From Cloeon dipterum (lineage: Eukaryota; Arthropoda; Insecta; Ephemeroptera; Baetidae): DNA of 64,000 nt. Position numbers and translations under genes: made by a program. The DNA lies in the NCBI RefSeq assembly GCF_949628265.1, contig NC_088788.1, positions 31,048,335 through 31,112,334 of the forward strand, given 5' to 3'. Shown piece by piece: positions 37,220 to 64,000 of this stretch. Position 1 is the stretch's first letter. Every line of letters begins with the position of its first letter. The notes below the pieces were generated by a model. The model was given only the letters and a program-made list of their open reading frames with translations, had not been told where the DNA came from and made no database searches.

Positions 37220-38529
37220 TTACACCCACAAAATATTCGCAAGCCAAGGAGTCAAAAGACCCATGATGATGCTGGAGATTAAATTGACACTGTGGTTGTC
37301 TAGAATTGGCACGCCGCTGATGTGCTTCACACCACGGCCCGGGCGTTCAACAATGCAGCCAGTCTTTTCTTCGACGCCTGGATTGCACAGTTTATACATG
37401 ACCTAATGATTACTTTGAGTAATAATACCTGAGTATTGGAGGGTTGCGCCCAAAAGAGAGTCAACAACGCTTCCGACCAAGCCGGCTAATCCTCCAGCAA
37501 TGATTAGAGGCCATTGGGGCGGACTCGAGAGGAGCGAGCTCGAGTCCACAAGCTGCACAACCGAAATGTAATACGCTACTCCAACCATCAATCCACCAAA
37601 AAAGCTAAAAAGCAAGCCTCCAACAGTCACGCCGCCGTTTGTACCTGCACCAGTATAGTTTAAGTTAGTGGAGTTGATGCTTTTCTCAACAAAGTTTTCA
37701 CCTCTTGGTACTTTCTCTCTGGTGGTGATGAGGAAGGGGTTGGTGTTGCCTATTACTGAACCAAGTTCTGAGGCCCAGGTGTCACCATTGCAGCAGGCGA
37801 ACGCTCCAAGGACACCCATACTCAGCCAAGAGGCCCTGTAGTCTCTGGAGAAGTCTACTGTTCGCTCTCCGCAGCCAGAGTCGATCAGGTAGAGGAGCGC
37901 AAGTTCAGTGGCCATGCCTCCGTTGCACAACACCTGGATCCAATTGCGCTGGCCACCTACCAATATTTCATTTCAGCAAATATTACTTTCAAATAAGTTA
38001 TCAACGACCTTCTTTAAACTCTTTTTCAATTTTCCTTTTTTTATCGCTCCTATATTTAGTAGCTTTGGAGGAGGTGACAAAAAAGGTCATCAGACAAGCT
38101 AGAAATGAGTAGCTGCTGAGGGTAAGGACAAAGCCTACAATGAGACCTGAAAATAAAAACAATGTGCTTTAGACTCTCATAACAACATTTTCTTGCGGTT
38201 TACCTAGCACAGCTCCTGAAGTGTTCAAACTCCTTTTTTTCAAACCCCAGGCCACGAAAGCCAAAGGAATGACCATGGACATGAGCCACCGAGTAGGCGG
38301 AATTACAGAGCCACCTATCAATATCATTAATGAATTTAAGCCGATTATTTCATCATAAATGCTTCTAAAGCTTGTTAATACCTTCTCTGTGCATTTCGTG
38401 GCTTCCAGTGAAAAATGAGAGAGCCATATTTCCGATCCATAAGAACATAGACAGTGGAACTGCGACGGCAGCCAGGAGTATTGGCATTAGTGCAGACAGC
38501 ACGGATTGCTGCTCATCCTTATTTCCCAT
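37220..38529 (-). CDS. TMEM19: Transmembrane protein 19 (DUF92 family integral membrane protein)
   Basis: Six exons on the minus strand: 38529-38382, 38314-38204, 38146-38009, 37956-37702, 37644-37429, 37377-37220. They total 1026 nt, 341 aa (human 336). Conserved stretches in order: PPTRWLMS and [89 protein letters not shown]-like [44 protein letters not shown]. Several hydrophobic segments indicate a polytopic membrane protein; the DUF92 family also includes phytyl-phosphate kinase-type proteins, but the animal function is not established. For the last exon, the inner acceptor at 37378 is used because the nearer-donor AG would give an immediate stop. The intron 37645-37701 is 57 nt and free of stops. 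Confidence 0.95.
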
Positions 38530-39172: not shown

Positions 39173-40700
39173 ATGGAGTGCGATGAGGGAGCTGATAAAA
39201 CTCGGGATTTAAACTCGTCCACTGTGTCGACAACACCGAAATTGTCCAAGAAAGAACGAAAAGCTCTCTTGGCCAGCAGAAAAAGCTTTGAGAAAAGTCT
39301 GAAAAATGTCATCACTAACCCTTATCCTGTGTATTGGTGAGCGAAACAATTTCATCGAGCTAGATCAAAATTTCTTTTGTACCTATGTATCTACATATTA
39401 TAATATGTATTATGTATGAATATACATGATTTACTTACGCATAGTATGTAAATTACAAATATGTTTTATGCTTAATACATACGCTTTAGTTTAGCATGGT
39501 ATATAAGCACAAACTGATTAACACCTATATGTAATTATTGTGGTGTATCTATCTACAATAACTGTCATATTTATTTAAGTATATCGAATACCAAACTCGA
39601 AAATTAAAAAGTTTTCCACAAAAATTTCCTGAAACTATAGAGAGATAAGAAATAATATGTATTATAATGTGATTAATATTTCTAAGCCACTATTTTTATT
39701 TTCAGGCCACTGGTAGAAAAAACTGAAGACCTGTTTGAAGCCCTGGAAGTGTAAGTGACCTATATAAATTGCTCCTATTAAAAAAAACATTTTTGAATAC
39801 AATTTAAAATAATTTGATAAAAGCCTACATTTGCGTAGAATAATACACTTTAACATTTTTTTATCGTTGTAGACCACTCAAAACTTGCTGGATACCAATT
39901 GCGAGGTTGCAATTATCAGCTATAAAAGGGAAAAGCAGAGAGGAGAGGCAGGCTTTGAGGAAAAAAGTCGTAGAAGATGCTCAGCCAAATGTTGAGGAAG
40001 CTCGCAAGTGCAGGTCAATGTTGGCCATAGGCTTAAATGCTGTGTTCAGAGCTCTGGAAAGACAAGAGGTGGAAGCTGTATTGGTAGCAAATGACATTGA
40101 TCCAAAATTCATGGCTCAGCATCTCATTCATCTTGCCTCACAACAATCCACTGTGATTGTTGTTTGCAACTTACGACAGCTAGCAAAATCTACAATTGGA
40201 GCAGAGTCAGCCGCTTTGGCGTTCAAGGTTTTTATTGTTTTAATAATTTTTAAAACCAATTAAATTCTGACTGTCCATTTTATCAGTGCTGCACAAGGTG
40301 TGAAGATAATCCATTCTTCAGTGCTGTGCAACTTATCAAAGAAAAAGCCTTGAGAGTGCCTAAACCAGCGACATTGCCTGATTTGTCAGCCAAAGTGAAC
40401 AAGGAAGAACAACAAGTGGTGCCCAATACTGAAGACCTAGAGCTTAAAGAATGGCAGGAAAAGGTGGTAAGCATTAATTGGAACTTGAAACGGCCACTCT
40501 CCGGAGGCAAAGCGTTCTATCCTCGCGGTGATGAAACGAAATCGAAAATGGAAGACGCAGGTGAATTCATTCCCCTCAGCCAAGACAGTGCATTCCCTGC
40601 TAGTTTGGACAAGAGTGCGTATTTACCGCTTCGCGTTAAGAGGGTTCAGCCAAACAAGGAAAAAATGGCATTAAAGAGAGCCAAGAAACTTAAAAAGTGA
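39173..40700 (+). CDS. RPP38: Ribonuclease P/MRP protein subunit p38 (L7Ae-type RNA-binding protein)
   Basis: Four exons: 39173-39336, 39706-39750, 39873-40227, 40287-40700. They total 978 nt, 325 aa (human 283). The start MECDEGADKTRDL is in good context. An early NPYPVYWPLVE motif parallels NPYIIRWSALE of vertebrate RPP38. The L7Ae/L30e/S12e/Gadd45-type core lies at about residues 125-200 (RSMLAIGLNAVFRALERQEV, AVLVANDIDPKF, HLIHLASQQSTVIVVC, GAESAALAFK). The C-terminal third is Lys-rich and less conserved, ending KRAKKLKK. The protein binds the K-turn region of RNase P and RNase MRP RNAs in the nucleolus and serves pre-tRNA 5' processing and pre-rRNA cleavage. The first intron is AT-rich. 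A poly(A) signal lies at 40750-40755, about 50 bases after the stop. Confidence 0.88.
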
Positions 40701-40903: not shown

Positions 40904-43900
40904 TTAGCGTGATTTGACTTGGTCGTCATTAACATGGAGACCTTTGAGACCCATAGTCAACGAGACTATTTGTGGGCTTTGATCTTTAACTTCTCGTTTG
41001 CTGATAGACCTCTTCCCAAAAGGGCGTTTATGACCTGGACCTCTTTCGAATTGCCCTGAAATTTGAATTAAAATATTATGAATCCGTTAATAAACCTCTT
41101 GCGATGAAAGCACTTACACATGTGGAAGGGATGGTTTTCTGGGATTCCACTGTGTGTGGGTTTGTTGGTTTGAGGGCGTACAACATTTGGCTTTGGTTGA
41201 GAACTTTCTTGGCACCGCGGGTCATTAGAACCGGGGAAGCACCTAGGGGGCAGCGCCAGTGATGGGTCGAGGGCCGATGCATCGTCCTGGCACGTCACTC
41301 CGCCAACAGGATTAACCGAGCACCCTTCTGGCAAATCCTCTTGAACAATCGGTGGTGAAGGGTTGCAGGACGGGTCATTAGGGCCGCAGGCTGGGAGGTA
41401 GCCAGGGGCGGGAGTGGACGGGCGGTTAGTGGTTGGACGAGGGCAACGGGGGTCGGCACTGCCAGGGTAGCAATTCGGAGGACACCTCAAGTCAGTGGAA
41501 CCTTCAGGAAGAAAATTCAGTGTTTCTATTCACTCGCGGTTCCCGGAATTCATTACCTGGCGTGCAAACAAACTGCGTTGTTGGCCTAGGCGTGGTTGTG
41601 GTCGGGCACCTCGGGTCCCTGCTTCCTGGATAGCAGTTAGGTGGGCAGCGTGAATCAGTGGAGCCAGGTGTGCAAACAAATTGTGTGGTTGGTCGTGGTG
41701 TCGTCGTGGTTGGACACCGTGGATCGCGGCTCCCGGGAAAGCAGTTCGGAGGGCACCTTGGGTCGGTTGAACCTAGTACAGCAATTTAATTAATTTCCCC
41801 CTTTTTGCTTTTCGATCTCAATCCATACCAGGTGTGCACACAAACTGGGTTGTTGGCCTTGGTGTCGTCGTGGTTGGACACCTTGGATCGCGGCTCCCGG
41901 GAAAGCAGTTTGGTGGGCAGCGTGGGTCAGTTGATCCTACACGATATAATTGAATTTTATTTACATGTTTTTTATTATGCAATATTTACCAGGTGTACAG
42001 ACAAATTGGGTCGTTGGCCTAGGTGTAGTTGTGGTTGGGCACCTCGGGTCTCTGCTTCCTGGGTAGCAGTTAGGTGGGCAGCGTGGATCAGTGGAGCCAG
42101 GTGTGCAAACAAATTGTGTGGTTGGTCGTGGCGTTGTCGGGGTTGGACACCGTGGGTCGCGGCTGCCTGGAAAGCAGTTTGGCGGGCACCTAGGGTCGGT
42201 AGAACCTAAACAAAATATTTGCAGACTGCTTTTAACGATAGTAAAATTTCAATTTTACCAGGTGTGCAAACAAATCGGGTTGTTGGTCTTGGTGTAGTTG
42301 TGGTGGGGCACCTGGGATCTCTGCTTCCTTGAAAGCAGTTAGGAGGGCAACGTGGGTCCGTGGATCCTACACAAAAATTTTAATCAATTTAACTCCATTT
42401 AATACGGCAATTATAAAGAAACTTGGTGGTATTTTTACCGTGATAAATTGTCTTAGATTTTATCAACTTTTACCTGCCGTGCAAATGAATTGGGTCGTTG
42501 GTCTGGGCGTCGTAAACGTTGGAGTCGGTCTGCAGCTTAGATCGTTAGGTCCACAAGCAGGCAGATAACCTGGGGCGGGGGTTGATTTAGGGCAACGAGG
42601 ATCTACAGAACCTGGTGAGCAAACAGGGGGGCACCTAGGATCAGTTGATCCAGGCGAGCATCTAAATTGAGTTGTTGGCCTAGGAGTTGTTGTAGTGGGA
42701 CACCGTGGGTCTCTACTTCCTGGATAACAGTTTGGTGGGCATCGGGGGTCATTTGAGCCTGTAGCAAAAGTAGCATGGATTATTTCATAATTTCTCCATT
42801 AAATTAATGAAAAATGTATTTATCATATTAATCCAGATTATTTTTTTAAATTTTACCTTGAGTGCAAACGAACTGCGTAGTTGTCGGCCTAGGAGTAGTA
42901 GGTGTTGGGCACCTTGGGTCTCTGCTTCCTGGATAGCAGTTTGGTGGGCATCGGGGGTCAGTTGAGCCTATAGCAAAATTGGCATGAATTATTTCATAAT
43001 TTATCCATGATATTAATGCCTAATCAGTCAGATTTTATTATTATTAATATTTTAATTTTACCTTGAGTGCAAACAAACTGCGTAGTTGTCGGCCTAGGCG
43101 TAGTGGGTGATGGGCACCGTGGGTCTCTGCTTCCAGGATAGCAATTGGGTGGGCAACGAGGGTCAGATGATCCTATAATCGCAGTCAATTTTTAATCATC
43201 ATCTCTGCGCAATACTTAAAATCTTTGAGTATGTGCCTTACTCAATAGGCTCTTTATTATATCAAATTTTAGAAAATTTTGTTTCTGTAAGCTATAATAT
43301 TTAAATAATATCATGTGTCTGTATTACCTGGAGTGCAGACGAACTGTGTAGTGGTTCTACGAGTAGTTGTGGTTGGCCTTGGCGTAGTGGGGGTTGGGCA
43401 CCTTGGGTCTCTGCTTCCAGGATAGCAGTTTGGCGGGCATCGAGGATCGGTGGATCCTAGAATTTCAATCATTTGAAATTGCTTTTCAATAAAACTTTTC
43501 TGATTTACTATCCTTTTTGTAATTTAAATGATAACTTGCATTGCATATTGATTTATGGTTTTATATGATTTACCTGGAGTGCACACAAACTGTGTAGTGG
43601 TCCTTCTAGTGGTTGTGGTTGGTCTTGGAGTTGTTGGCGTCGGGCACCGCGGGTCTCTGCTACCAGGGTAGCAGCTAGGCGGACAACGTGGATCGGTGGA
43701 GCCTGCAAAATGTAAAATTTTAATTTCATCCATAGCATAAATATGCTATTTTTATTTCGTCATTTACCTGGAGTGCAAACAAATTGTGTCGTGGTTCTAC
43801 GGGTAGTAGTGGTTGGTCTTGGTGTAGTGGTGGTAGGACACCGCCGGTCTCTGCTTCCAGGGTAGCAGTTTGGTGGGCAACGAGGGTCAGTGGAGCCTGT

Positions 43901-46900
43901 GTGATGGTAAAATTATGAGTTCTAGTTTCAAACATTGCCCTTCTCTAGCTCTCACCAGGAGTGCAAACAAATTGAGTGGTAGCCCTGGGAGTTGTTGTGG
44001 TAGGACATCTAGGGTCGCTGCTTCCAGGGAAACAGCTTGGTGGACAACGAGGGTCAACTGAGCCTAAAATATTTTTCTCAGAATTTGTTTCTTTTTCAGT
44101 GTTCAAATTACCTGGAGTGCACCTGAATTGCGTCGTTGGTCTTTGAGTAGTAGTCGTGGGACATCTGATGTCACGGCTGCCAGGGTAGCAATTTGGAGGG
44201 CATCTTGGGTCAGTAGATCCTATTGAGAGGTCAATTTGATTTAAAGATATTATTAATTTTAGAAAGATTGTATGTACCTGGAGTGCAGACAAATTGAGTT
44301 GTGGGTCTTGGAGTTGGCCTGGGTGTCGGCCTTGGTGTTGTAAACTCTGGTGTTGGTCTGCAACTGGGGTCGTTTGGCCCACAAGCAGGCAAGTATCCCG
44401 GGGCAGGGGTGGTTGGTCTGGGACATCTGGGATCAGTTGAGCCGGGAGTGCATCTAAATGGCGTGGTAGGTCTCTGAGTTGTCGGAGTTGGACAGCGAGG
44501 ATCCCTGCTTCCAGGGTAGCAATTGGGCGGGCAGCGAGGATCAGTTGAGCCTAGAATTTTGATTCAGTTATAGCTACTTTTAATTTCTGGGTTTTATTAT
44601 TTTTTGCAATATAGCTGTTTCCGATATATGTCGCTTTCTTTACTTAATTAAAATTTGCTCTATATCTTAATTTTCTACTATTTTGAACGGATTTTTAAAA
44701 AAACCTGAGGGTCAAGTATTACCTGGTGTGCACACAAACTGAGTTGTAGTTCTTCGAGTAGTTGTGGTAGGCCTAGGTGTAGTGGTGGAAGGACATCTAG
44801 GATCTCTAGAGCCAGGGTAGCAGTTTGGCGGGCAACGAGGGTCAGATGATCCTTAAGAAGGAATTATTTATAAAAATAATTCCATTGCGCCACTCAACGT
44901 TATTTACCTGGTGTACATCTGAACTGAGTCGTAGTTCTTTGTGTTGTTGTTGGTCGCGGAGTCGTTGTTTGCGGACACCTGGAATCGCGGCTTCCAGGAT
45001 AACAGTTAGGTGGGCATCTCAGGTCAGTTGATCCTTTTATCAATTGATGAGCAAATATTATAATCTCCATATAATGAAAGATTCGTTGCTTTATACTTTA
45101 AATTTCTACGTTTAATGTGTTAGCAATTATAATTTTGTGCACATACTTTAATGTGTCTATAGCCTCTAGACGAAATGAAAATAATTGTTCAATCTGTATA
45201 TCAGAGGCATATTCAAGGTGCAGTAAAAACAGAGCTGCTCCCAGCCACAAATAAATATTTTGCATGCTGCATAATCATCCGAAAAAACGTTCTATAGAAC
45301 ATACCTGGAGTGCAAACAAATTGTGTTGTTGGACGCGGCGTTGTGGTTTGTGGGCATCTAGGATCACTGCTTCCTGGGAAACAGCTGGGCGGACAGCGAG
45401 GATCAGTTGAACCTTAATAATAAATGAGTTAGTGATATTGTAAAATTTTTATTTTTCTATTAAATAATACCTGGCGTGCATCTGAATGGGGTTGTTGTCC
45501 TTTGCGTTGTTGTGGGTCTAGGAGTGGTTGTCTGCGGACATCTGGGATCCCTACTTCCAGGGTAACAATTAGGGGGACACCGAGGATCACTAGAACCTGC
45601 GAATAATGAAAAATTATTTGTATTATTTTAGACTGATTTATTTCACATTTTTTTAATTATCTAGATTTTATAGACTACTCCACAGATGAAATAGTATTTT
45701 TAGAAAATTTAATTAATTTTATAATATATTATTTTACCTGGTGTGCATCTAAACTGTGTTGTAGGTGGCCTCGTTGTTGTAAATCTCGTTGTAGTAGTTT
45801 GCGGACATCTGGGGTCTCTGCTTCCAGGGTAACAGTTAGGAGGGCAACGTGGATCGTTTGATCCTTTACGCGACAGCAAATTCAGTAAATTGCAAGTAGT
45901 TTAAAAAAAACGTACCTGGCGTGCACGCAAATTGAGTTGTTGGCCGTCTCGTCGTCTGAGTCGTTGGAGGCCTGCAGCTCAAGTCATTTGGTCCGCAAGC
46001 CGGCAAATATTCTGGTGCAGGCGTGGATTTAGGACAGCGGAGATCAGTTGATCCGGGGAAGCAGTTTGGTGGACACCGAGGGTCAGTCGATCCTAATTTG
46101 AGATTCACGCTATTGTAATTCAGTCCCATACAAATGTATTATTAAAATGCTTGCCTTGAGTGCAAACGAATGTAGTTGTCGGGCGGGGAGTCGTTGTCTT
46201 CGGGCATCTAGGGTCACTGCTGCCAGGGAAGCAGCTTGGGGGACACCTGGGGTCAGTTGAGCCAGGAGTGCACCTGAATTGTGTTGTTGGCCTCTGTGTA
46301 GTTGGTCGTGGAGTTGTTGGCCTTGGCGTTGTTGGTCGTGGAGTGGGACAGCGGACATCCCTACTGCCGGGGTAGCAGTTTGGTGGGCAGCGAGAGTCGG
46401 TTGAACCTATGCAGTTAAATCATTTTTATTTAACTTAAATATTAAAAAAAGATGAAATGGGTTTTTTTAATTTTCACTCTCACAAGATTTTTTTTCTTTA
46501 GTTACTTTTTTCTATTTAGTTTATAAGAAAGAATATTTAACAATCAATTTTCATATCCATGACAAACGAGTTTTACTTGGTTGCATTATATTGTTTTTCA
46601 TTTTCGTATCAAAAATGAATTTTTATGTTTGAAAGCAACTTTATTTTCTGTAACGCAGAAATGAAAAAAATTGAAGTTTTGTCCAATAATGGCGCATATT
46701 TTTTTGCGCGTCTGGGATTTTTGCGATCAAAACTAAAAAGGGTTATGATATTTGATAAAATTATATCTCATATTCATATATATTTATGTAAATTAAAGTA
46801 GTAATTTTAATTTAAAAGTTTTAGCAGAAAGTAACCAAATGAAGAAAAACTAATCTTTTAGACTCGCTCACCTTGAGTGCAAACGAATGTAGTTGTCGGG

Positions 46901-49900
46901 CGGGGAGTCGTTGTCTTCGGGCATCTAGGGTCACTGCTGCCAGGGAAGCAGCTTGGGGGACACCTGGGGTCAGTTGATCCAGGAGTGCACCTGAATTGAG
47001 TTGTTGGCCTCTGCGTTGTTGGTCGCGGAGTTGTTGGGGCAGGGCAACGAGGATCTCTACTGCCAGGGTAGCAATTGGGTGGGCAGCGAGGGTCGGTTGA
47101 GCCTACGGTAGTTTATGGATTTTGAGGAAATTAATAAACTTGCAAAAGGAGAAATTGAAAGAACAAAGCTTAATTTAACGATTGAGTGGTCCAACTTTAC
47201 ATAAAAAATGTTATAAGAATTATGCGATTGTTTTTAACAGCTCTGATTGAATGAACTAAAAATTTCCATCCCGTGTCAGATCCGAACTGATGTAATAAAA
47301 TATATTGTTGCTAATAATTCACCTGAAGTGCAAACTAATTGCGTCGTTGGACGGGGAGTTGTAGTCGTGGGACACCTGGGATCTCTACTTCCAGGGAAAC
47401 AGCTAGGGGGACACCTAGGGTCGGTTGAACCAGGTGTGCACCTGAATTGCGTTGTTGGTCGTTGAGTTGTCGGAGCAGGGCAGCGAGGATCTCTACTGCC
47501 AGGGTAGCAATTGGGTGGGCAGCGAGGGTCGGTTGAACCTGCGGTAGTTTATTGATTTTGAGTATATTAATGAAATTGCAAAACGAGAGATGGAAAGAAC
47601 AAAGCTTAATTTAAGGATTCGGTTCAACTTTACAGAAAAAAATGTGTTTAAGCAGTATGATGCGATTTTTTTCTCAAAACAGTTTCAGCTCGGATTTAAT
47701 TAAAATTTTCTTCCCAACAGATCTGAATAGATGTACAAAATACATTGTTGCTAATAATTCACCTGAAGTACAAACAAATTGCGTCGTTGGACGGGGAGTT
47801 GTAGTCGTGGGACACCTGGGATCTCTACTTCCAGGGAAGCAGCTTGGGGGACACCTAGGGTCGGTTGAACCAGGTGTGCACCTGAATTGCGTTGTTGGTC
47901 GTTGAGTTGTTGGAGTAGGGCAGCGAGGATCTCTACTGCCAGGGTAGCAATTGGGTGGGCAACGAGGGTCGGTTGAACCTGGCAATGAGTAAAATAATAT
48001 TTAGCGACAAAGTTTTTAGTGTGATGGATTCTATTTATTATTATAATTTTAACCTTTTTTCATTTTTCAAACGAGCATGATCCTTTTAAATCTCTGCGAT
48101 TTACCGTGAGTAAAAACTTCTGACTCTACAATTATTATCTTAATAATTATACTTCACTCCTTTTTGACTGCGTTAATTGGAAACAGGAGTTGCGGTCGAG
48201 GGTGTAATTTGTAAATTTAAAGGAATGTATTGCTCTTTATGTGAATTGACTCACCAGAAGTACAAACGAATTGAGTAGTCGGACGAGGTGTTGTGGTCGA
48301 TGGGCATCTGGGGTCGCTGCTGCCAGGGAAGCAGCTCGGTGGGCATCTGGGATCAGTTGAGCCAGGAGTGCACCTGAATTGTGTTGTCGGCCGCTGCGTT
48401 GTTGGTCGTGGTGTGGTGGGGGTGGGGCAACGTGGATCCCTGCTGCCAGGGTAACAATCGGGCGGACAGCGCCGGTCGGTGGAGCCGGGCGTGCACCTGA
48501 AGACGGTCGTTGGCCTCACGGTCGTTGGTCGAGTAGCTGGCCTCGTGAACTGCGTTGTTGTCACCGAAATGCACGCAGGGTTGGGCGACCCCGGATAACA
48601 AGGTTGCGGAGTTGTTACCGTGATGGGTATTTCGTTGGAAGAAGAGCAGCTGCCATCGCATCCTCCAGAGCAAATCTCGATGTTGCATGTCAAATAAACT
48701 TGGGGCGTATCAGGGAACTTGAAAGCGGTTAGGTTGTTGTAGGCGATGATCGTGTCACCTTCTGAAGTCTTTTGCCAGAAGTGAATGAACTTGTGCCTCC
48801 TATGTTAAAATTTGAATAGAATTTTTAACTTTAAATATATTAAACTTACTTAGGACAACCCTCAGAATCCGAGAGCTGCAGACTTGAAGTTTCAAGCGCG
48901 TCATATTTATCGCTGTCGTAAGCCCAGCAATCTCTAACACGCAGATCGTATTGGTTCGCCTCGTCCTTCAAGTAAACCAGGACTGTCAGCGTCTCGCCAA
49001 TTTTTATATTATCTTCCAGCTCGGCAGTCTGTAGATAAATTCACGAATTAAAAAAAAATCCAAAAGGCTTCACCGACGCCTTCTTACGTTTGGGTACTGC
49101 CCTTTGCGAATGTCCATCCAACAGTCGACCGACTTGCCGCCTGCGGTCGGGACCGAAACCACCTCCAGCATGTCAACCACGAAGGGCTTGAAAATGACCT
49201 TCTTTTGCTTGATTGCCGCAGCAGTCGTCGCGCAGGACAACTTGCGAGCTGTGTCCCAAACTTCCTGCACGACGCCGTCCGTCTGGATGACGATGACGTT
49301 GTCCACAGTGGCTCCTTTAGTCGTGCCACAACCACTTGTCGGAATTGTGAATTCAAACGAACTCCTGCCTGAATTTTCCGCGACATATCTATAAGAAAAA
49401 TTTCCATTCAAGCGTCGAATGAGAATATGTTGCAAATAGGCACCTGCACTTGGGGTCATTATAGTACCCCTTGCTGAACACTACTCCGTGGAAGGGAGCA
49501 TCAAAATCTAAGTTAACTTTTATGGCGGCGTCTGTGCACGCAACATCTAAGCGAGAGATGTGTGTGTGATGGTGGTGCTCGCGTTCCGGGCGCCTTGCTT
49601 CCTTTGGAACTTGTAGCTGGTTCAGCGACCTTGAAAGCTCCTCCACTTCATCTTGGAAAAGCAGTTGGCTTTGAGCTGCCTAAAATTTTAATTATTATTT
49701 CGGATTTTGTCGTACCGATAATAAGATGAAAAATTTATTTTATAATTCCTCTGAATATTTTGTGTAGCCTTCCTTAGTTGGGGCGAATTTTTAAAATTTA
49801 TTTCCAAAATTAAATGAAAGGAAGTGTGATCTTCTAATTTATTAGCTTAAAATGTATTAATGTCTATAGTAAGTTATAAATTGGAAAGTAACAACGATAG

Positions 49901-50486
49901 AATATTGCCTGCATAAAATTAAGAAAAATCACAGTTTCAACACTAAAATAATAGGCCTTTACACAACTCTGCTAATATCGGCGCTTCAGAAGTGACGCCA
50001 AAATTCCATAACTCCACAACAGGTTGCCCGTGACCCTGTGTTTCTATTAGATTGTTTGTGAAATAGCCATAAAAATCGCAGCAGGCGTAGGTTTTGTAGT
50101 GAAAGATCATATCATATATGCGAGAGCGATATGGGATGCGCTAACGTGAAGGAGACGTGTTGTTGTACGCGTGCCTTTCTAATTGCGCGGCTCGACCCAT
50201 GCGGATGGATCGGCAGACGCTGGATGGCCAGGTCGGGGAACATCTCTTTCACTATCTGTGTCACATATGCACAAGTTGCACAACAAGTGTCAAGAAGGCC
50301 GCCTTCTTCTATCATTAATTGGCAAACATTCACTTTGTGTAGCTCATAAAAGGTCAGCTCAAAGATACCGAGAGTGACCCGACGCTGACCCCATGGGAAT
50401 CGAAATTAAAATAGCGAGCAGTGACTTTTGCGAGAACTTACCTGTAGGGCAAACAAGCCGAGCAGACACACCTTCCAGCCTAACAT
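40904..50486 (-). CDS. Secreted ZP-domain protein with a long Cys-module/Thr-Pro repeat tail
   Basis: Thirty coding exons on the minus strand sum to 5580 nt (1859 aa) with an unbroken frame. N-terminal exons: 50486-50442 (signal peptide MLGWKVCLLGLFALQ), 49679-49444, 49388-49088, 49028-48850, 48799-48255. Residues about 42-300 form a zona pellucida domain: paired cysteines, PFHGVVFSKGYYNDPKC, SFEFTIPTSGCGT, VVQEVWDTARKLSC, RVRDCWAYD, YLTCNIEIC. The next 24 exons are the repeat array (separate entry). The last exon, 41055-40904, encodes a short basic tail with dibasic sites (FGKRSISKRE) and no membrane anchor. ZP domains polymerise extracellular proteins; in insects such proteins line apical matrices and cuticle. 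The order here, ZP first and repeats after, differs from typical ZP proteins, where the domain sits next to a C-terminal furin site and membrane helix. I do not recognise a specific ortholog. Confidence 0.88.
46155..47102 (-). repeat. Near-identical exon segment pair within the ZP array
   Basis: The 3' about 125 bases of exons 46406-46155 and 47102-46872 are almost identical (one or two differences), encoding the same TPG, CFPGS, KTTTPRPTTTFVCTQ stretch. The flanking introns are unalike, and the upstream halves of the exons differ in linker length. This looks like a recent local copy or gene conversion. Confidence 0.8.
47103..47978 (-). repeat. Recent tandem duplication of about 440 bp including introns
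   Basis: The segment 47103-47538 and the segment 47539-47978 are near copies: the two 216-nt exons differ at only a handful of positions, and the flanking intron sequence is also shared (GTAGTTTAT, GAACAAAGCTTAATTTAA, ACATTGTTGCTAATAATTC-type matches with small indels). This places the duplication breakpoints in the introns, so a complete exon with its splice sites was copied. Confidence 0.85.
49680..50441 (-). other. ZP gene intron after the signal-peptide exon
   Basis: Donor GTAAGT after 50442 and acceptor TTTTAG before 49679. It contains a GC-richer patch at about 50100-50400 with short open frames on both strands that do not resemble any family; nothing else is seen. Confidence 0.7.
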
Positions 50487-54613: not shown

Positions 54614-57091
54614 AAGAAAGAGCACTCGCTGAATAAATAAAGAGTGGCAAGTCCTTTTTTGCTACTGGAAGAAAGGACCTCTTCACTGTTCAAAATACCA
54701 ACGTGATCGTTAAAAGTGAAAAGGTCTCTGGTTCAAAGCAAAGAAAACGACCTGGTCCACAATCGGATGGGCATCTTACCTTGACTCTAATCCTTTCTAA
54801 CGCAGGTGACTATGACTCTTTTGAAAGACGCGCTTGTTGCCAAAATAAAAACCACGCGCATCACAAGTCGCACGCAGGTGACAAATGTGCCCTTTGGCCG
54901 CCACAAAAACCGACACCCACGCACAGAGAAGTTCGGAGTGGTTTTCGCTTTTAGAACCAGGAAACAGACACCCGCCGGCGTTTGGTCACGCTTGACAGAG
55001 ATGGATTTCGCACATCTTTTTTCCGCGGTGATAAAATTTATTGTCATAGCACGTTTCCTTTATCTGTGTTTGCAATCAACAGAGATTTCCACCTGCGTTT
55101 TCCTCGCATTTTATATGCTAAGTTTGATTCATGAGAGCTGATAATGATTTTGTATCACAATCATGATTATTTGGAATCGTTCATTACTATAGTCGTGCGG
55201 CAATCCCGAAGAGGTTTTACCAAACAAAGTATTAAATTAAAAGATCCTGTTTGACCAGCAAGTACAATGTTGACTGTTGAACTTTAAAGTCACGTGTTGA
55301 ACGTGTCTCCAATTCAATTTATGAACACATTCAAGCGAAACAAAATCGCACGGCCGCATCTTTGAATTTCCCCATTAATTTTTTTTTTTTTTTTTGCCAC
55401 CAAACACCTCTGCAGGTGTGCTCGAATCCTGGTCACCAATCATCGCGTCGCGGATTTGCATAAATCTATCAGCTGTAAACATTCTGCGGCGGGAGGACGA
55501 GTTGGACGAGAGAATTTCACAAATCATAATGGCAAACAGACATTGGGGCAATTATCGAGTGCAGCAAACAGGGAAATGCCTCCCACATCTCGACCTCTCC
55601 AGCGTGGAGAAGGAGCGAGCCGGTCTGTCTGCGAATCTCTCGCTCACTCGCTGCGCTAGTGCCGGCGGCGCCTTTTGACATTTAGCCTCGCAAGGCCGGC
55701 CGGAGAAAACGAAAGTAGTGAACAATGCTGAGACGCTGTGCCGGCCCTCTGGAGCATCTCTGCGTGTCGTCACACAGCATCATCTCTCTCTATAATATAA
55801 GAATTTTGGGTGCGTACGCGGATGACAAATTCGCGACCGGCGGCCACTGAGAATTAACACACGGCGTGTACTTGAACTGCGGTTGGCACACCGCAAACGC
55901 AGGCGTTCATTTGCGCAGTCTTAGAAATGGGAAAGTGAAGATTGCTCGTTAGATGTAATTTTTCCGACTTTATTGCCCGTCGGCCTTTAACTGTGATCTT
56001 TTAGTTGTTCAGCCTCGCTCGTTGATGTCTCCATATCGCACCGAGTCAATCGAAAGATCATCGAAAGGCGAAAGATGATTGCCGGGTGTTTCGAGATGCT
56101 GCTGTAATTTATTGGCTTCTGGTGTCTTCTTCTTGCATTCCAGGTTTTACAACTTTACCTTGGATTTGCAATTATCATAAGCGTTAGAACTTTGCGGAAG
56201 TTAAAAACTCTATTTCTGATGAAGTGATATGCAATCCTTGATCACTTAAAAAGTACATGGTCAAGAGGAATATTATTATTTTCTACACGTCAAGATTAGG
56301 ATGAGAATTACTTATTAATACAAATCTATGACTTTAGAAACGTTTTAAATTTAAAAAAAAATCATCTTCTTGAACCTTGAGATTTTCAATGAATAACCAC
56401 GATGATCACAAATTTTAATAATTATTTTCCTTGTCCGCTGCACCCAAAAAGGAGCGAGACCTGACCTAACTCTTATAGTGCTACTTCAGCTTGGATCTCT
56501 TCAAGTTAAAAATTAATGTTGCGTATTTTGTAGATGTCACCGCACTTGGTGAAACTCGTAATAGAAGTGTCAATTTTTCTTTGAATGCCTTTAGCAAAAA
56601 GCCAACAAATACATGGATTTTATGTACGTGAGCGCCTCTCAAAAGGTCTTCTTGTGTGTTGCCTAACACGCCGGTAGCATAATACCGCAGAAATATTATT
56701 TATATAAAAAAGCAATTAACAAACTGACACACTCATCCAACCAGAGGCATCTTACTTTTCTCCGCGACGACTTGTTGGGAAACAAGAACTCGTCTCTATT
56801 TCTGTTAGTCATGGGGGCTTGCGATGATTTGTAAACTGCCATCATATTTCGTAGCCAGCGCGTTAAATTGCAAATTATACCCCTGGTACACGCACAACTG
56901 TTTGTTCTTAATTAACCTTTACAAGGAGTGAATGGCAACTGTTTTCAGAAATAATCAAGAAATTTTTCAAGGATATTTTTCTCCCTTTCCAAGTTACTTC
57001 TCAGAACAATACTCCTCAGTCATATCGATTATCTGGTATATGTTTATTACATGTTTCTGGTTGAATTACAAAAACGCCACTAATAATACGT
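54614..57091. other. Intergenic DNA downstream of the dynein gene
   Basis: Mixed composition with GC-richer patches at about 54800-55000 and 55440-55930, a 17-base T run at 55379-55395, and no supported coding exon. The likely dynein poly(A) signal (AATAAA, minus) is at 57043-57048, about 45 bases past its stop. Confidence 0.6.
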
Positions 57092-60000
57092 TTAGGATCT
57101 CCTTTTTAAAAATATTACAACACCTCGTTTAGTCCAGACCTTTGCATCTCCGCCTGCTAACCAAATTGAGCCAATGCTGTGGCGCTTAGCCTCTTCGCTG
57201 TAAATCGGGCACTCGAATTTGTTTTCATTTTCTGGTGTTGATGTTGCGCATACAGATATTGGAGGCAGCTCTGTTGGCCCGCCTTTCTGCTCCACTAATA
57301 ACCCACTGGAACAGGTAAAAATGCAGCTAGTTAAATGTTTGTTGATTTTTTCAAAAATAATATCGTAAGAAAATCTGCTCTGTTAATGGAAAATAGATAA
57401 TTTAAAAGTCATTTTTATTATGTTGAGCAGATGGTTAGTCCTCTTTGCCAGAGATGACAAAAAATCGTAATAAAATTACCAGGTAATTGGTGTCAAAAGA
57501 AATAATAACGCAGGCATGACTTAAAAGGCTGTCACTTCTAAAAAAACAAGTATCATAATATTCAACACATAATATCTGACACGGAGCTATTAATAACGGC
57601 TCTAAACAAACAAATTTCCAACACCTTTTGATGTCGAAGTCGGCGCCGTCCAGCCACAGGCCGCATACGGTTACCACTCTGAATTTTTTGCCAGGGTCGA
57701 TCTGCAGTTGGAGCGACACTTCAGAGAGCGAAACCCCACGAGACCGGCTTTCTATTTGAATCATAGACGCGAACAAGGCTTCGGGTCGCTCCATGCCGGG
57801 CATCCACAAATGGTGCGAATCATCTCGAGGCCAGGTCTGTTCGTGCCAGGTCACACGGGTCAAAACAATTAATTTACTTTGAGATAAAAATGCAACACGT
57901 CTCCGACATAAATTTTCCATCGCTGTTGTGATTTTGATTTGGGTCTCGGACGCATTTAGAGAAAAAGAATGCTCTTACCAAGGTGTGTAACTTTGCATTG
58001 ACAAACGCGAAGTCTTCAAGGGTTGCCTCGACCTCTGCAGAAGGCATCCACTCGCGAGGAGCAACGCCTCTGGCCACCAAATTTGCGTCCTCCACCATGG
58101 CCGGGGGCACGAATCCGTCCGTCATCGCCTGCTGCAGCGTTTTCAGACATTTTCGCGCAGCCTCGATCCTGCTCGCTGCCCTCGTTTGCTCGTAAATCAG
58201 GGTTAACGCCACTGCATCGTTCTCGTCGGCAACAACCTCCTTTGGCGTTGGCAGCGCCTCCAGCATAGCGTCGAGCTGACCTTTGAAAGAATCTGAGCGA
58301 AAAACCTCTTCCAAAGTTGCCCCTGCCTGAATTTTCGGCCCGAACAGTTGTGGGTCATCGAAGTCCAAAACCCCCAGCCAATCGGAGGTGGCTTTGAGGG
58401 GCATCAACGACGCCCTTTGGAGACAAGCTGCTAAAGTCGGAACTTGTGGCGGAAGTAGGGGCGCCGTTCCGACCCGGGTCAGCTCGAAGTTGGCAGTGGC
58501 GGTGAGGAGAACCGAATTGATGCACTCTTTCAGCAGCAAGTCAGCCAGCCTCAAGTCCCAAGGGTCAGTCACGTGGCCCAAAAAGCCACACTCGCCGACC
58601 AAGCACAATGCTGCCTCCAGAGGAACGCGTCTTGTCGTTCGACAAAGTTCCTGAGATTTGATTCATTACTTATTGCACTGAAGAAAAAAAATATTTTTCT
58701 ACCCAGAGGTGCCGCGAGGCTAATCGAAAATCGCTCTCGCCAAGGGTGATGGTCTTTGTCCATGACCGGCCGAGGAGGAGCGCGTAAAGGAAGGACAAGC
58801 CGTAGACCAGTCGGCAGTAAGGCGCCTCTCGACCATTGCACCCTTCCATTAGATCCTCCTGCCTCTTGAGAGCCTCTTTCATGGCTTCACTCAGAGCTAC
58901 CGGCTCCTCCAAAGCTACTTTCACTGAACTTTGAACCAGACCGATTGGAAGCTGAAAGTGCATGCGTTATTACAAATAATCGCCATGCTTGCTATTTTAT
59001 AGTTTGCAATACCTGCGCCTCAGGACTGCAGGTGAGCCACAGGCGGAAGGTAGGGGCCGCGTCTTCAAAAGACATTCTCTCGAGTTTTCGGAGCCAGTCG
59101 TCAGTCAAGTGGCAGTTGTTCAAGCACACCCATGTCCCGGAGGCCATCGCCTTTGCTATGGCCTCCTCGGCGTGGCTCGTTCGTCCAGGAGCAATGCTGA
59201 TGGCGCTTATGTCCGCCATTTCCTTGACGGCGAGCGCGAAAAGGGCGCGTGACACGTCTACGCCAAAACCCAAAGTACAAATTATCGGATTTTCAAAAGT
59301 AGAATTTTCTAGGGCGATTTCCAAACGGCCAGCCTCCAAATGGCTGTCAAAGTGCAAAACGTTTTGAATGAGATCTTTCGCACTTTGCTCGATGATCGCA
59401 TTGCTTAAGAAAACGGTGCTAATTATGAGCCGCTCAAAAGGAGGGATTGCGTTCCATTTTTCATTCGCGTCTTTGTTCAGCTCACTGAAATTTTTCCATT
59501 CATCCCAATTTTCTTCAAAGTTAGTGATTATTTCTGTAACATTTATTGGAATTAATTAAATCTGTTCAGTTTGCATGTAAATAAGCAAACTTACGCGCAA
59601 AGCGTGGAAAGTGCATCATTTCAATTTTATACTTTCGCGTTTTGCCATTATACAGGAAAGTAACTTCGTCCAGTGTAATATCCTTTCTAGCCCTGAACAA
59701 AGAGAGAGTAACTTTTATAAAGCTCACATTCGGGTCAGTGTGGAATTTCCATTTACGTAATGCGAATTTACGCGCGCATTACTAAGATTCATTTTAAATC
59801 TCCACCGTGCGTGAAAATTTATTTCCATAAGACATTTATTTTATACACTACCTAAGCAGGTCCAAAGAGAGACGCAATAAATATGCCAGATGGTGTCTGC
59901 GAAATAAAGCGGCGCATACGTGCTCGCAGAGCGTCTTCAAAAACGCATCTGTCAAGTTGTCGCTCAGGCCCATTTTGCAACTGCACACAAATCAAAGTAA

Positions 60001-63000
60001 TTGCCCAGATCGCAGGAAAATCCTCTCTAAAACAAACCTGAGTCTGACCGACGTGCTGAAAAGCTGCAAGAACCACGCGTGCGAGAAGTGGTACGTGCTG
60101 CCCAGGGTCGGCAGCCAGATCAGGGTGGCGTAGGCGGCGGCCGCGTCCCTCGCCAGGGTGCGGTGCTTGGCCTTGAAATCGGCGATCTGGCCGAGCGTCT
60201 TTTGAGCCTCCAACTGCCTCTGGGCCAGCTCCAGGGACATGGCCCTCGAGGTGTCCAGCACGTCCACAGCGGCCTCGTCCTCCAGCAGGTTGCCCTGGCT
60301 CGCCGAAAGAGTGCTCAGAATGCGGTCCTCGGTCGCCTGCAGGGCCGCCTTGTTAGCCGCACCTTCGCGCACCACTTGCTGCCGCGCCAGTCGCAGAGCA
60401 GGGTGCTCCGCTGCCATCACCAAGCCCAATAGCTCTTCCTCCAACCCTTCGGCGGGCAGCGTGAAGTCCACTAAGGTGACGCAGGCCAACAGCTCGCGGC
60501 CCACTGAACTCCGGGTCGTGATGTACACCCGAAATTCAGAATCGCTTCAAAAATTATAGGTCAGATGCATTTAAAAATAAATTGGAAATCTTTAAAATTG
60601 ATGCATAAATGCTAATTTTACGCAGACGGTTTGCCAAATTAGTTGAATTCGTGTAAACTGTCATGATCTAAAACCTCATTCACTGGTCACAATTTATGCA
60701 ATTTATTAGTCAACAAATTCATTGGTCTGAAAATGTATTAAAATTGTTTTAATGACATTTTTCACTCGTAAAAATTTGGCCAACAGACAGAAATGGGATC
60801 CAGAAGTAAAGAAATTGGTTCATAAAGGTTTGTTATGGGCTCTACTATACTTTCTGTTACAACTAACCTCTAAGCTAAAAACTATACCCACAAATTTCCA
60901 GATACAACGTGTAGACCAAATTCTTTGCAGATTTTGCCAAAAATAAATAAAACAACTACTGGAAAATGAATTCAATGTGATGAACATGGAGCTGGGTGTT
61001 GCTTGTCAAGTTAACTAAAGAAATAGCAATAATATCGAGCAATAAATTAGCTCTTCGCGATTTTTCTGACCTAAATAAACCCTTATAGAGATAAAAATTA
61101 CGCATCGATCGATTTTCTATAAACCGCCTTCAAAATCTGATTACCCGTAGTTTTAGTTTTCATCACTGATTTGAAGAGTTTGTTAATAACAAGTAAAATG
61201 TATCTCCTAATCCTAACATTATTTTATGGAATCTACTCATTCTCCGCGCTGGAGAGTAGTTTGATCAAATAAGGACTCATCAGCAAGGTTTCTTCTCGTG
61301 TTAATTCTCCTCTCTCGGCCGATCCATCGTAGTAAAATACTAGCTTATTTATAAATACTGAATTATTACTTTCCAATCCACTTTAAAAGAAATTCAAGGC
61401 GATAACATTCATTGCTGTACATTTTAGGATTAAAACAGAAGTGCAACTCATTCTTACGCAATCTCTTACACACCAAAATAGCTACTCAAATGGTGACAAT
61501 GCATGTCTTAATCTCCTTTGCATGGCATTTTCAAGTGGCCATATAATTTGTAATCTAAGTTTTTAAATTACCTCGATCGCAAGGGCACAGCTCGCAGCGC
61601 TTCGAGCAACGCGTCTGGCTCTTCAATGTCCTCGAACAGAAGGGGCTTCCCGTTGCGAAGGCATGCAGCGTAGAGCTGCTCGTCCCAGTCCTTGCTGACC
61701 CGCAATTCAGGCTCGGCGCTCTTGATCCACGCGTTCGCTTGCCGCTGCGGGTCCAGGCAGACGCAGGGACGCAACGCGTGGCGCGCGATCACTGCGCTCT
61801 GCGTGGACGCCGCGTCGCGCTGCAGACCGCCGATGTGCCACGCCTCGGTCTCCAGCTCCGAGCTGAGTACCAGGGTCACGTCCAGGTCGGCCGAGAAGGC
61901 GACGCCCTCCTCGTGCAGAAGGGCCATCCACTCGCTGATGCAGCGGGCGCGGCGTTTCGCCCTCAGCGGGCCCAGGTAGGTGGCGGTCGCGCTGCCCAGC
62001 AGGGCGTCGCCCTCCAGGCACGCCAACGAGTCCTCCAGCGAGGACGCGGTGGCTGCCCAGTGCTGGCGCTCGCCGCCCAGCCCGCCGATCAGTTTCTCCG
62101 CGCGTACCAGCTTCCGTTCGCACGCCTGCAATCAGTACAGCGAGGAGGGTGGTTAGGCAGCCGGCGGCACGTACGTGCAGCGCGGCGTGCCTACTTGGTT
62201 ATTTCAAGGTTCTCTATAATTAAATTGTGTTAAAAATTATATATAATTTCGAATAAAAAATTTAATTTAAACAGAACGGATTTTTACTTATTTCTTCCAA
62301 TTTTAAAATAAAATATATAGAATACTTAATTTCTTTTTAACATGTTTGCAATTTTTTAAATTTTGCAAAATTGCAATGTATTCGGACTATATTTATATTG
62401 GTTTTATATTTTTATTTTAGCGTTGAGCTTAAATTTAATTTATTATACGGCATTATACCTACTTTAAATTGAAATTACTTAATAATTGATTATTTTTTTG
62501 TGGATTTTTCAAAAATTTCTGATATTAAAATATTATTTATTCTAAATTTTAATTAGAGAAAAGTTTTAACTTAATAAAATTTGAGATAATTTCGGTTGCT
62601 TTGAAAACTTCATGCCTGTTGTTAATGTCATTGTTTTTTTATGGATTTGCTGGTGTCAAATATTAAATGAAGATCCATTTTCTAATTAAATCAGACTTTA
62701 TCCTCGTTGCTTTAAAACATCCTACTATTAATTAATCTTTCTTTTTTTCCTCTTGTTTGTTTTATTTCAAAAATGGAACAAACAACCTCGAGTGTCGGCA
62801 TACTAACTAACATTAAATGAAGAATCAGAAAAGTATTTATGCTATAATAAGTACATAGTTATTTCCTGTATTAAAAAACCAAAAATACTCTAATTGGATA
62901 TAACTTAATTTTGGCACCATTCTTAACTAAATTTAACTTTTTTAAGCATTGGAAGAGTATTCACAACAACTGATAGTTGGTTTAATGCACCTCTATGTGC

Positions 63001-64000
63001 TGGTGTAATTTTTTTGCTGTTTTTATGCATTTTTTTACAATTATGCAATTGTTCATTCTTTCTGAATGTCAAACACTATAAAATCTTTATTAAATTTTAA
63101 GTTTAATTTTTTAATGCTGTTGCATCAAATTGCAAAATTCCCCTTGAAAATGCTCCTCATCTTACTTGAAACTCAGACTCCAAAGTCCTTTTATGCGAGT
63201 TGGCAGCGTCGAATTGCGCCCGCAACTCGGCAAGTTGCTTCTCCAAGCGGCGGACTTGCGCCCTTTTTTCTTCCAGCACTGCGAGCGTGGCCGCGTATTC
63301 TTGTTGCGCTATCTCGAGTTTCGCCTTCTTTGGTGCCACCTCTTTGGCCACCGCGTCGTACATGTCCATCGCCCGCACCCACTTGCAAAGCCCCTCTGCG
63401 GCGCTTGACGCGTTGGCTACCGTCTCAGGTCGAAAGTCGGGGTGCGGAATGAATTCTTTGCGGATTTTTGCCATCACCGACGCCGGAATATTGTCTTTAT
63501 CGAAATCCTTGAGCTGCTGCAAAAAGGCAATGTCACCGAGAAGTTTTTTGCTCGGTCCCCAGTAGTCTAATATCTAAAACAGACGAACATAAATTATTTA
63601 TTTCCCTTAGGTGACAGTTATGAGGTGTTGAATAAATAAATATATGCTTGACCTTTCCTCGTACGATTTCACGGAGGAAAAATAAGAATAGCACACATAT
63701 GGCATTGAAAACTGAAGATGGGGTTTCGAACAGGACGCGGAAATGAAATGCACTCTGCGAAAAAGCAAAAGTCACATTCGTAACAATTTTACGCCTGGCC
63801 GCTCGCGAGCCAAAAATAAAAACAAACATCTGCTGGGAGAGTGAGCGTTTTAAACAGCGAAGATCAAGGATTCACCTTTGCGTGAGCTATTAAAATAATC
63901 GAATCGTTACCTTTCTTCCTGTAGAGGCGTCATTTAGCCTGTCGGGTTTTATGTTCCGTATAACACACACAGCGGCCATTACCATTTTGATTGGCTCAGG
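57092..64000 (-). CDS. Axonemal dynein heavy chain, C-terminal part (5' end beyond the window)
   Basis: Eleven exons in frame: 64000-63911 (partial), 63573-63166, 62125-61572, 60544-60038, 59980-59852, 59692-59595, 59533-59013, 58951-58703, 58650-57979, 57836-57625, 57305-57092. They give 1217 aa plus stop. In order: microtubule-binding region (IKMVMAAVCVIRNIKPDR, ILDYWGPSKKLLGD, DFDKDNIPASV), stalk coiled coil 2, AAA5 (RAEKLIGGLGGE, LDPQRQANAWIKS, RVYITTR), the ASQGNLLEDEAAVDVL linker, AAA6 (SGTWVCLNNCHL, FRLWLTCSP), and the C-terminal domain (GHVTDPWDLR, FECPIYSE, VWTKRGVV). Inner-arm, single-headed chains such as DNAH3/7/12 are the closest remembered pattern. Dynein heavy chains are minus-end motors of cilia and sperm tails. 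The copy is divergent at several usually invariant positions. Confidence 0.93.

Follow-up and report, generated by a model that had tools for sequence, protein, structure and literature searches.

In Drosophila, the apical-matrix ZP protein dumpy is encoded by 78 coding exons. The internal exons are divisible by three, with one exception, and skipping of exon blocks was seen by RT-PCR (PMC2930355). Abalone VERL is a ZP protein that has been enlarged by tandem repeats, which are ZP-N domains followed by a ZP-C domain, and its role is in the egg coat (PMC13361971). For nematode epicuticlin, the number of repeats was found to differ among clones, and the repeats of Asu-epic-1 are all found in one exon (PMC9612446). 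In uromodulin and ZP3, polymerisation is prevented by a C-terminal propeptide that contains a hydrophobic strand, and the block is lifted when a protease releases the propeptide; uromodulin is GPI anchored and has EGF and D8C domains ahead of the ZP module (PMC7737619).

The gene described here belongs to the mayfly Cloeon dipterum and was found in a window of 64,000 nucleotides (RefSeq assembly GCF_949628265.1, NC_088788.1, positions 31,048,335 to 31,112,334). Similar to dumpy, it appears to encode an apical-matrix ZP protein from many frame-neutral exons of repeated Cys modules (PMC2930355). It also resembles VERL in being a ZP protein enlarged by tandem repeats, and uromodulin, a related protein, offers a model for polymerisation after propeptide release (PMC13361971 and PMC7737619). 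In contrast to Asu-epic-1, its repeats are spread over exons. Dumpy-type proteins carry their repeats ahead of the ZP and have a membrane anchor, whereas here a four-Cys Thr/Pro module follows the ZP and no anchor was found. Judged from the sequence, the exon design recalls dumpy and the repeat unit is distinct to this gene. Five module peptide strings did not occur in the literature searched. A separate gene at C4:18.505-18.510 Mb of the same genome was named dumpy-like from its EGF/DPY pattern. The reading which we consider probable is that the window holds a working gene for a secreted arthropod apical-matrix ZP protein, forming a filament with an exon-duplicated and probably O-glycosylated arm.

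Gene structure and ZP domains

The gene was modelled by hand and by script on the minus strand of the window, using splice sites and reading frame (Table 1). It extends from an ATG at 50486 to a stop codon ending at 40904 and contains 30 coding exons, with a CDS of 5,580 nt that encodes 1,859 aa without internal stops. All of the 29 introns are GT-AG except for intron 9, a GC-AG intron found inside the array at 46093-46154. The array introns (5-28) range from 48 to 465 nt with a median of 79.5, and 12 of the 24 are 70 nt or shorter. Their G+C content is 26.5%, compared to 56.2% in exons 6-29, a contrast that speaks against a chance pattern.

Table 1. Coding exons of the ZP gene, in positions of the window (a slash marks an intron).
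Feature	Position	Strand	Remarks
Exon 1	50442..50486	-	putative signal peptide MLGWKVCLLGLFALQ, by eye
Exon 2	49444..49679	-	His-rich segment and ZP-N start; ends in phase 2 (RCR/Y)
Exon 3	49088..49388	-	remainder of ZP-N and linker
Exon 4	48850..49028	-	ZP-C, part 1
Exon 5	48255..48799	-	phase 2-1; end of ZP-C; single loop CYPGSPNPAC; modules 1 and 2
Array exon 6	47763..47978	-	216 nt; second uncut module
Array exon 7	47323..47538	-	216 nt; close copy of exon 6; second uncut module
Array exon 8	46872..47102	-	231 nt; second uncut module
Array exon 9	46155..46406	-	252 nt; second uncut module; GC donor
Array exon 10	45916..46092	-	177 nt; module and CGPND cassette
Array exon 11	45738..45863	-	126 nt
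Array exon 12	45471..45596	-	126 nt
Array exon 13	45305..45412	-	108 nt
Array exon 14	44908..45033	-	126 nt
Array exon 15	44723..44851	-	129 nt
Array exon 16	44278..44550	-	273 nt; one full and one half module, CGPND cassette
Array exon 17	44112..44219	-	108 nt; followed by a 48-nt intron readable in frame
Array exon 18	43956..44063	-	108 nt
Array exon 19	43768..43896	-	129 nt
Array exon 20	43574..43702	-	129 nt
Array exon 21	43328..43456	-	129 nt
Array exon 22	43062..43172	-	111 nt
Array exon 23	42857..42967	-	111 nt; introns 22 and 23 homologous in part
Array exon 24	42474..42758	-	285 nt; second uncut module and CGPND cassette
Array exon 25	42259..42366	-	108 nt
Array exon 26	41990..42205	-	216 nt; second uncut module
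Array exon 27	41829..41936	-	108 nt
Array exon 28	41557..41772	-	216 nt; second uncut module
Array exon 29	41118..41501	-	384 nt; remainder of the final module; CGPND cassette; single loop CFPGSNDPRC; NHPFH
Exon 30	40904..41055	-	basic C-terminus with candidate furin-type sites, read by eye (HKRPFGKRSISKR); hydrophobic QIVSLTMGL

Pfam searches recovered ZP-N (30.0 bits against a cut-off of 24.7, E 6.9e-7), ZP-C (46.5 bits against 24.6, E 5.1e-12), and CUT_N (35.6 bits against 27, E 1.4e-8). The CUT_N match is shared with the nematode cuticlins (CUT), from which the gene differs in that CUT_C (18.3 bits) falls under its cut-off of 30. No EGF or DPY modules were found ahead of the ZP, as the first 435 residues gave only ZP/CUT-type families in Pfam. 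Among solved structures, a search of the ZP region up to E 1 found uromodulin as the sole relative (E 0.0033).

A 19-residue hydropathy scan after the ZP found no transmembrane segment in the window gene or in two paralogs, C4a and C4b, where the maxima were 0.47, 0.32, and 0.37, respectively, whereas two ZP genes with an anchor from this genome reached 2.97 and 3.16. The basic stretch and QIVSLTMGL of exon 30 were identified by eye, and the C-termini of both paralogs are likewise basic, with hydrophobic residues at the end. Exon 29 contains non-repeat sequence in addition to its repeats, and its NHPFH motif is common to the paralogs. The whole protein has one N-glycosylation sequon, at residue 276, N-terminal to the array.

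Other genes are found on both sides. Exons of a dynein heavy chain gene occupy the minus strand at 57000-64000 of the window (MT stalk 2.4e-18, AAA_9 1.1e-13, Dynein_heavy D6 3e-23), and an open frame at 37403-37963 on the same strand belongs to a gene for a DUF92 integral membrane protein (1.6e-45). On the plus strand, a Lys-rich open frame at 40326-40700 ends opposite and near the 3′ end of the ZP gene; a Pfam search of it up to E 0.01 gave no match.

The Cys module, the exon array and its relatives

The sequence-only reading had described 24 consecutive exons of one phase with lengths divisible by three. This was confirmed for exons 6-29, which are all phase 1-1 and measure 108-384 nt, each a multiple of three. 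Its proposal that exons could be lost or copied without disturbing the frame also stands, as all 24 are frame-neutral by phase and length. It had further assigned one Cys module to each of the 24 exons, and here the motif proved real while the count did not: the protein contains 33 four-Cys modules (C-x8-C-x3-C-x8-C), seven of the 24 array exons (6, 7, 8, 9, 24, 26, and 28) carry a second, uncut module, and two more modules are found in exon 5. Moreover, exon and module are offset as a circular permutation: an array exon carries Cys 2 to 4 of one module and Cys 1 (CTP) of the next, and whole modules result even if an array exon is skipped or copied. An intron is found inside 24 of the 33 modules, always after nucleotide 10 (CTPG/S), and the other nine are intronless.

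Over its 1,406 residues the array consists of 23.5% Pro, 21.3% Thr, and 10.2% Cys. An extra CGPND(P/L)SC cassette is found in exons 10, 16, 24, and 29. In its longer form, PAP(G/E)YLPACGPND, this cassette recurs four times in those exons at a spacing of 6 to 9 modules, which possibly marks larger duplicated blocks. Comparison of the modules with one another gave a mean pN of 0.088 against a mean pS of 0.79, with synonymous sites saturated and pS over 0.6 in 88% of module pairs. Constraint on the amino acid sequence of the modules is strong on average. AlphaFold2 was run on exon 28 using a 24-row alignment made up of array exons 6-28 and part of exon 5, and returned a pLDDT of 59 and no secondary structure, giving no structural support for loop pairing.

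The two halves of the module resemble each other, and a single loop is found outside the modules at either end of the array (exon 5, CYPGSPNPAC; exon 29, CFPGSNDPRC). Further evidence on the repeat came from the same genome. A genome search with the repeat returned, among the matches listed, the window gene and, weakly, C4b on contig C4 (E 3.9e-4). C4b and C4a are tandem ZP genes at C4:10582970-10590476. They contain 10 and 6 single-loop C-x10-C repeats, respectively, within one exon that extends from ZP-N to the C-terminus, so that repeat numbers across the three genes are 6, 10, and 33. Both share with the window gene a His-rich stretch, the ZP, Cys/Thr/Pro repeats, an (N/S)H(A/P)FH motif, a basic C-terminus, and the lack of an anchor. 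Their 5′ introns are kept, and intron 2, at the end of exon 2, has an identical place and phase. Unlike the window gene, they lack introns 3 to 29 altogether and have simpler repeats. The older doubling within the module that had been suspected from the two halves is borne out by the C-x10-C loops of the paralogs and the single loops flanking the array; judged from these sequences, the four-Cys module seems to have arisen by internal doubling of a single-loop repeat.

Alignment and tree building included seven of the ten other ZP loci (L031, L033, and L047 were left out), with intron places in five of the seven taken from open frames. Introns 3 and 4 of the window gene were found in none of the seven, and in one of these genes an intron lies at a distance of 7 columns from the intron 3 position. 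Path lengths place C4b and C4a closest to the window gene, and no supported branch groups them with it; therefore gain of introns in the window gene and loss in the paralogs are inseparable on this tree. Five pattern matches in viral contigs gave no confirmed relative. In the same genome no exact (TTAGG)5 was found by a search that may skip simple repeats, and Ephemeroptera are reported to be without TTAGG (PMC8977481).

Growth of the array and evidence for splicing

Homology between introns was found in two cases. Introns 6 and 7 align over almost their full length (171 of 204 aligned bases identical, with 33 mismatches and 16 gap positions), and introns 22 and 23 share 41 of 47 bases. Among introns 5-29 (25 introns), 14 of 300 pairs scored above the best of 30 shuffles, where 9.7 were expected. 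The third best pair, 16/29, is a possible further case that is short and A+T-rich (22 identities, 2 mismatches, 1 gap, z 6.7). Only 6/7 and 22/23 were accepted as homologous, and the other pairs are near chance. Because synonymous sites are saturated, old copied introns would be expected to be unalignable, and a separate origin is not thereby shown. A blastn self-comparison of the region at lax settings gave long matches that were mostly exon-driven, and these were not used.

Growth was not confined to whole exons. The two-module exons without an intron between their modules indicate that the array also grew inside exons. The second modules of exons 8 and 9 are nearly identical (pS 0.06), unlike the first ones (pS 0.49), a pattern that points towards partial copying or gene conversion. 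In the best module tree the presence of the intron changes 4 times, or 5 without the junction columns. This tree is weak: of its 30 inner branches 20 are open, and no more than one intron change is required by the supported ones; a single clade of intronless modules was not rejected (p 0.07). The proposal that the array arose by serial exon duplication is therefore upheld in part: the copied introns 6/7 and 22/23 record two duplications of a symmetric exon with its intron, and more such events are likely, whereas the growth inside exons and the 4 to 5 intron changes on the best tree depart from it.

The bases next to the intron site were also compared. An A two bases before the site was found in 19 of 24 intron-bearing modules and in none of the nine intronless ones (Fisher 5e-5), and for Pro codons alone the contrast was 12/16 against 0/9. 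Such an excess is as expected if the sites are really spliced and may be the trace of splicing constraint. At the matching Pro of the second module half CCA was found in 7 of 32 cases, and the other Pro codons of the array are 40% CCA. Against this 40% background the 0/9 at intronless sites gives p 0.011 if the sites are independent, and this CCA deficit means that part of the A contrast is not explained by splicing. The contrast is also tied to descent: supported branches yield one independent pair and the whole best tree five, numbers that do not suffice for a test.

Donor sites were compared with 20 control donors called by eye, 11 from the dumpy-like gene and 9 from the dynein gene (a dynein candidate near 58700, non-AG and without +5G, was left out). 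A G at +5 was found in 7 of 24 array donors and 13 of 20 controls (9/11 and 4/9, respectively). This overall gap results from an excess of AG-type (AG/G) donors in the array, since among AG-type donors alone the values were 4/19 and 2/9. Weak donors were considered as a hint of exon skipping and rejected, the array donors being ordinary for their type in this small control. Intron 17 (44064-44111), at 48 nt, is divisible by three and open, and is the only one of the 24 array introns that could be retained in frame.

The intronless repeats of the paralogs raise the alternative that introns were mostly gained, by repeated insertion at a proto-splice site (CAG/G) in the modules of an array that was first intronless. 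This would account for the single repeat exon in the two paralogs nearest by tree distance, for the absence of ZP introns 3 and 4 from the seven other aligned genes, for the repeated changes of intron presence on the best module tree, and for the failure of most introns to align. However, introns 6/7 and 22/23 are copies, old copied introns would be equally unalignable at this level of synonymous saturation, and loss of the 3′ introns in an ancestor of the paralogs is as simple. Moreover, with most inner branches open only one change is forced, and the intron of another ZP gene close to the intron 3 position makes sliding possible. We consider predominant gain unlikely. The fuller proposal, in which about 27 introns were gained relative to the intronless-array paralogs, many separately at one proto-splice site, and repeat growth produced the exon-intron ladder and not the reverse, is more doubtful still. 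The array might also be a decaying or misassembled tandem repeat that is no longer a used part of the gene. Long tandem repeats are prone to assembly error, and near identity is seen between the modules of exons 6 and 7 and between the second modules of exons 8 and 9. This explanation is very improbable in view of the lack of stops, the intact splice ends, and a pN far below pS over 33 modules, and the high pS of most module pairs rules out false duplication for the array as a whole.

The frame symmetry of the array could also reflect a cassette system, in which tissues or stages skip blocks of frame-neutral exons and so produce arms of varied length. The neutrality of all 24 array exons and the block skipping seen in Drosophila dumpy (PMC2930355) would agree with this. 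Tandem duplication of one exon is nevertheless sufficient for the symmetry and needs no function in splicing, the modules are under strong average constraint, and array donors are no weaker than comparable donors of the genome when AG-type sites are matched. Regulated skipping is thus possible, and we hold it to be somewhat unlikely. That tail length varies within the species is a fair hypothesis.

A proposed filament with a long side arm

The reading preferred over these alternatives is the working gene for a secreted matrix protein with an exon-duplicated arm. According to this model, all exons would be joined and the protein would act in the cuticle or in the tracheal or gut lining. The ZP module would polymerise the protein into filaments once it has been cut at a basic site close to the extreme C-terminus, as is suggested by the propeptide mechanism of uromodulin and ZP3. 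Because the basic and hydrophobic stretches of exon 30 lie after the array, the array would be positioned between ZP-C and the cleavage site and would remain attached to the mature filament, forming a side arm about 1,400 residues long. This arm would consist of small disulfide loops, spaced by Thr/Pro linkers that are probably O-glycosylated. Pairing of C1-C2 and C3-C4 is inferred from the existence of single-loop forms. In this reading, the arm was lengthened by duplication of a phase 1-1 exon together with its intron, in addition to copying within exons.

Within this gene, homologous junctions occur both with an intron and lacking one, a setting in which intron gain and loss in repeats can be tested. 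Moreover, its array is a clear case for asking if exon number sets the length of a matrix arm.
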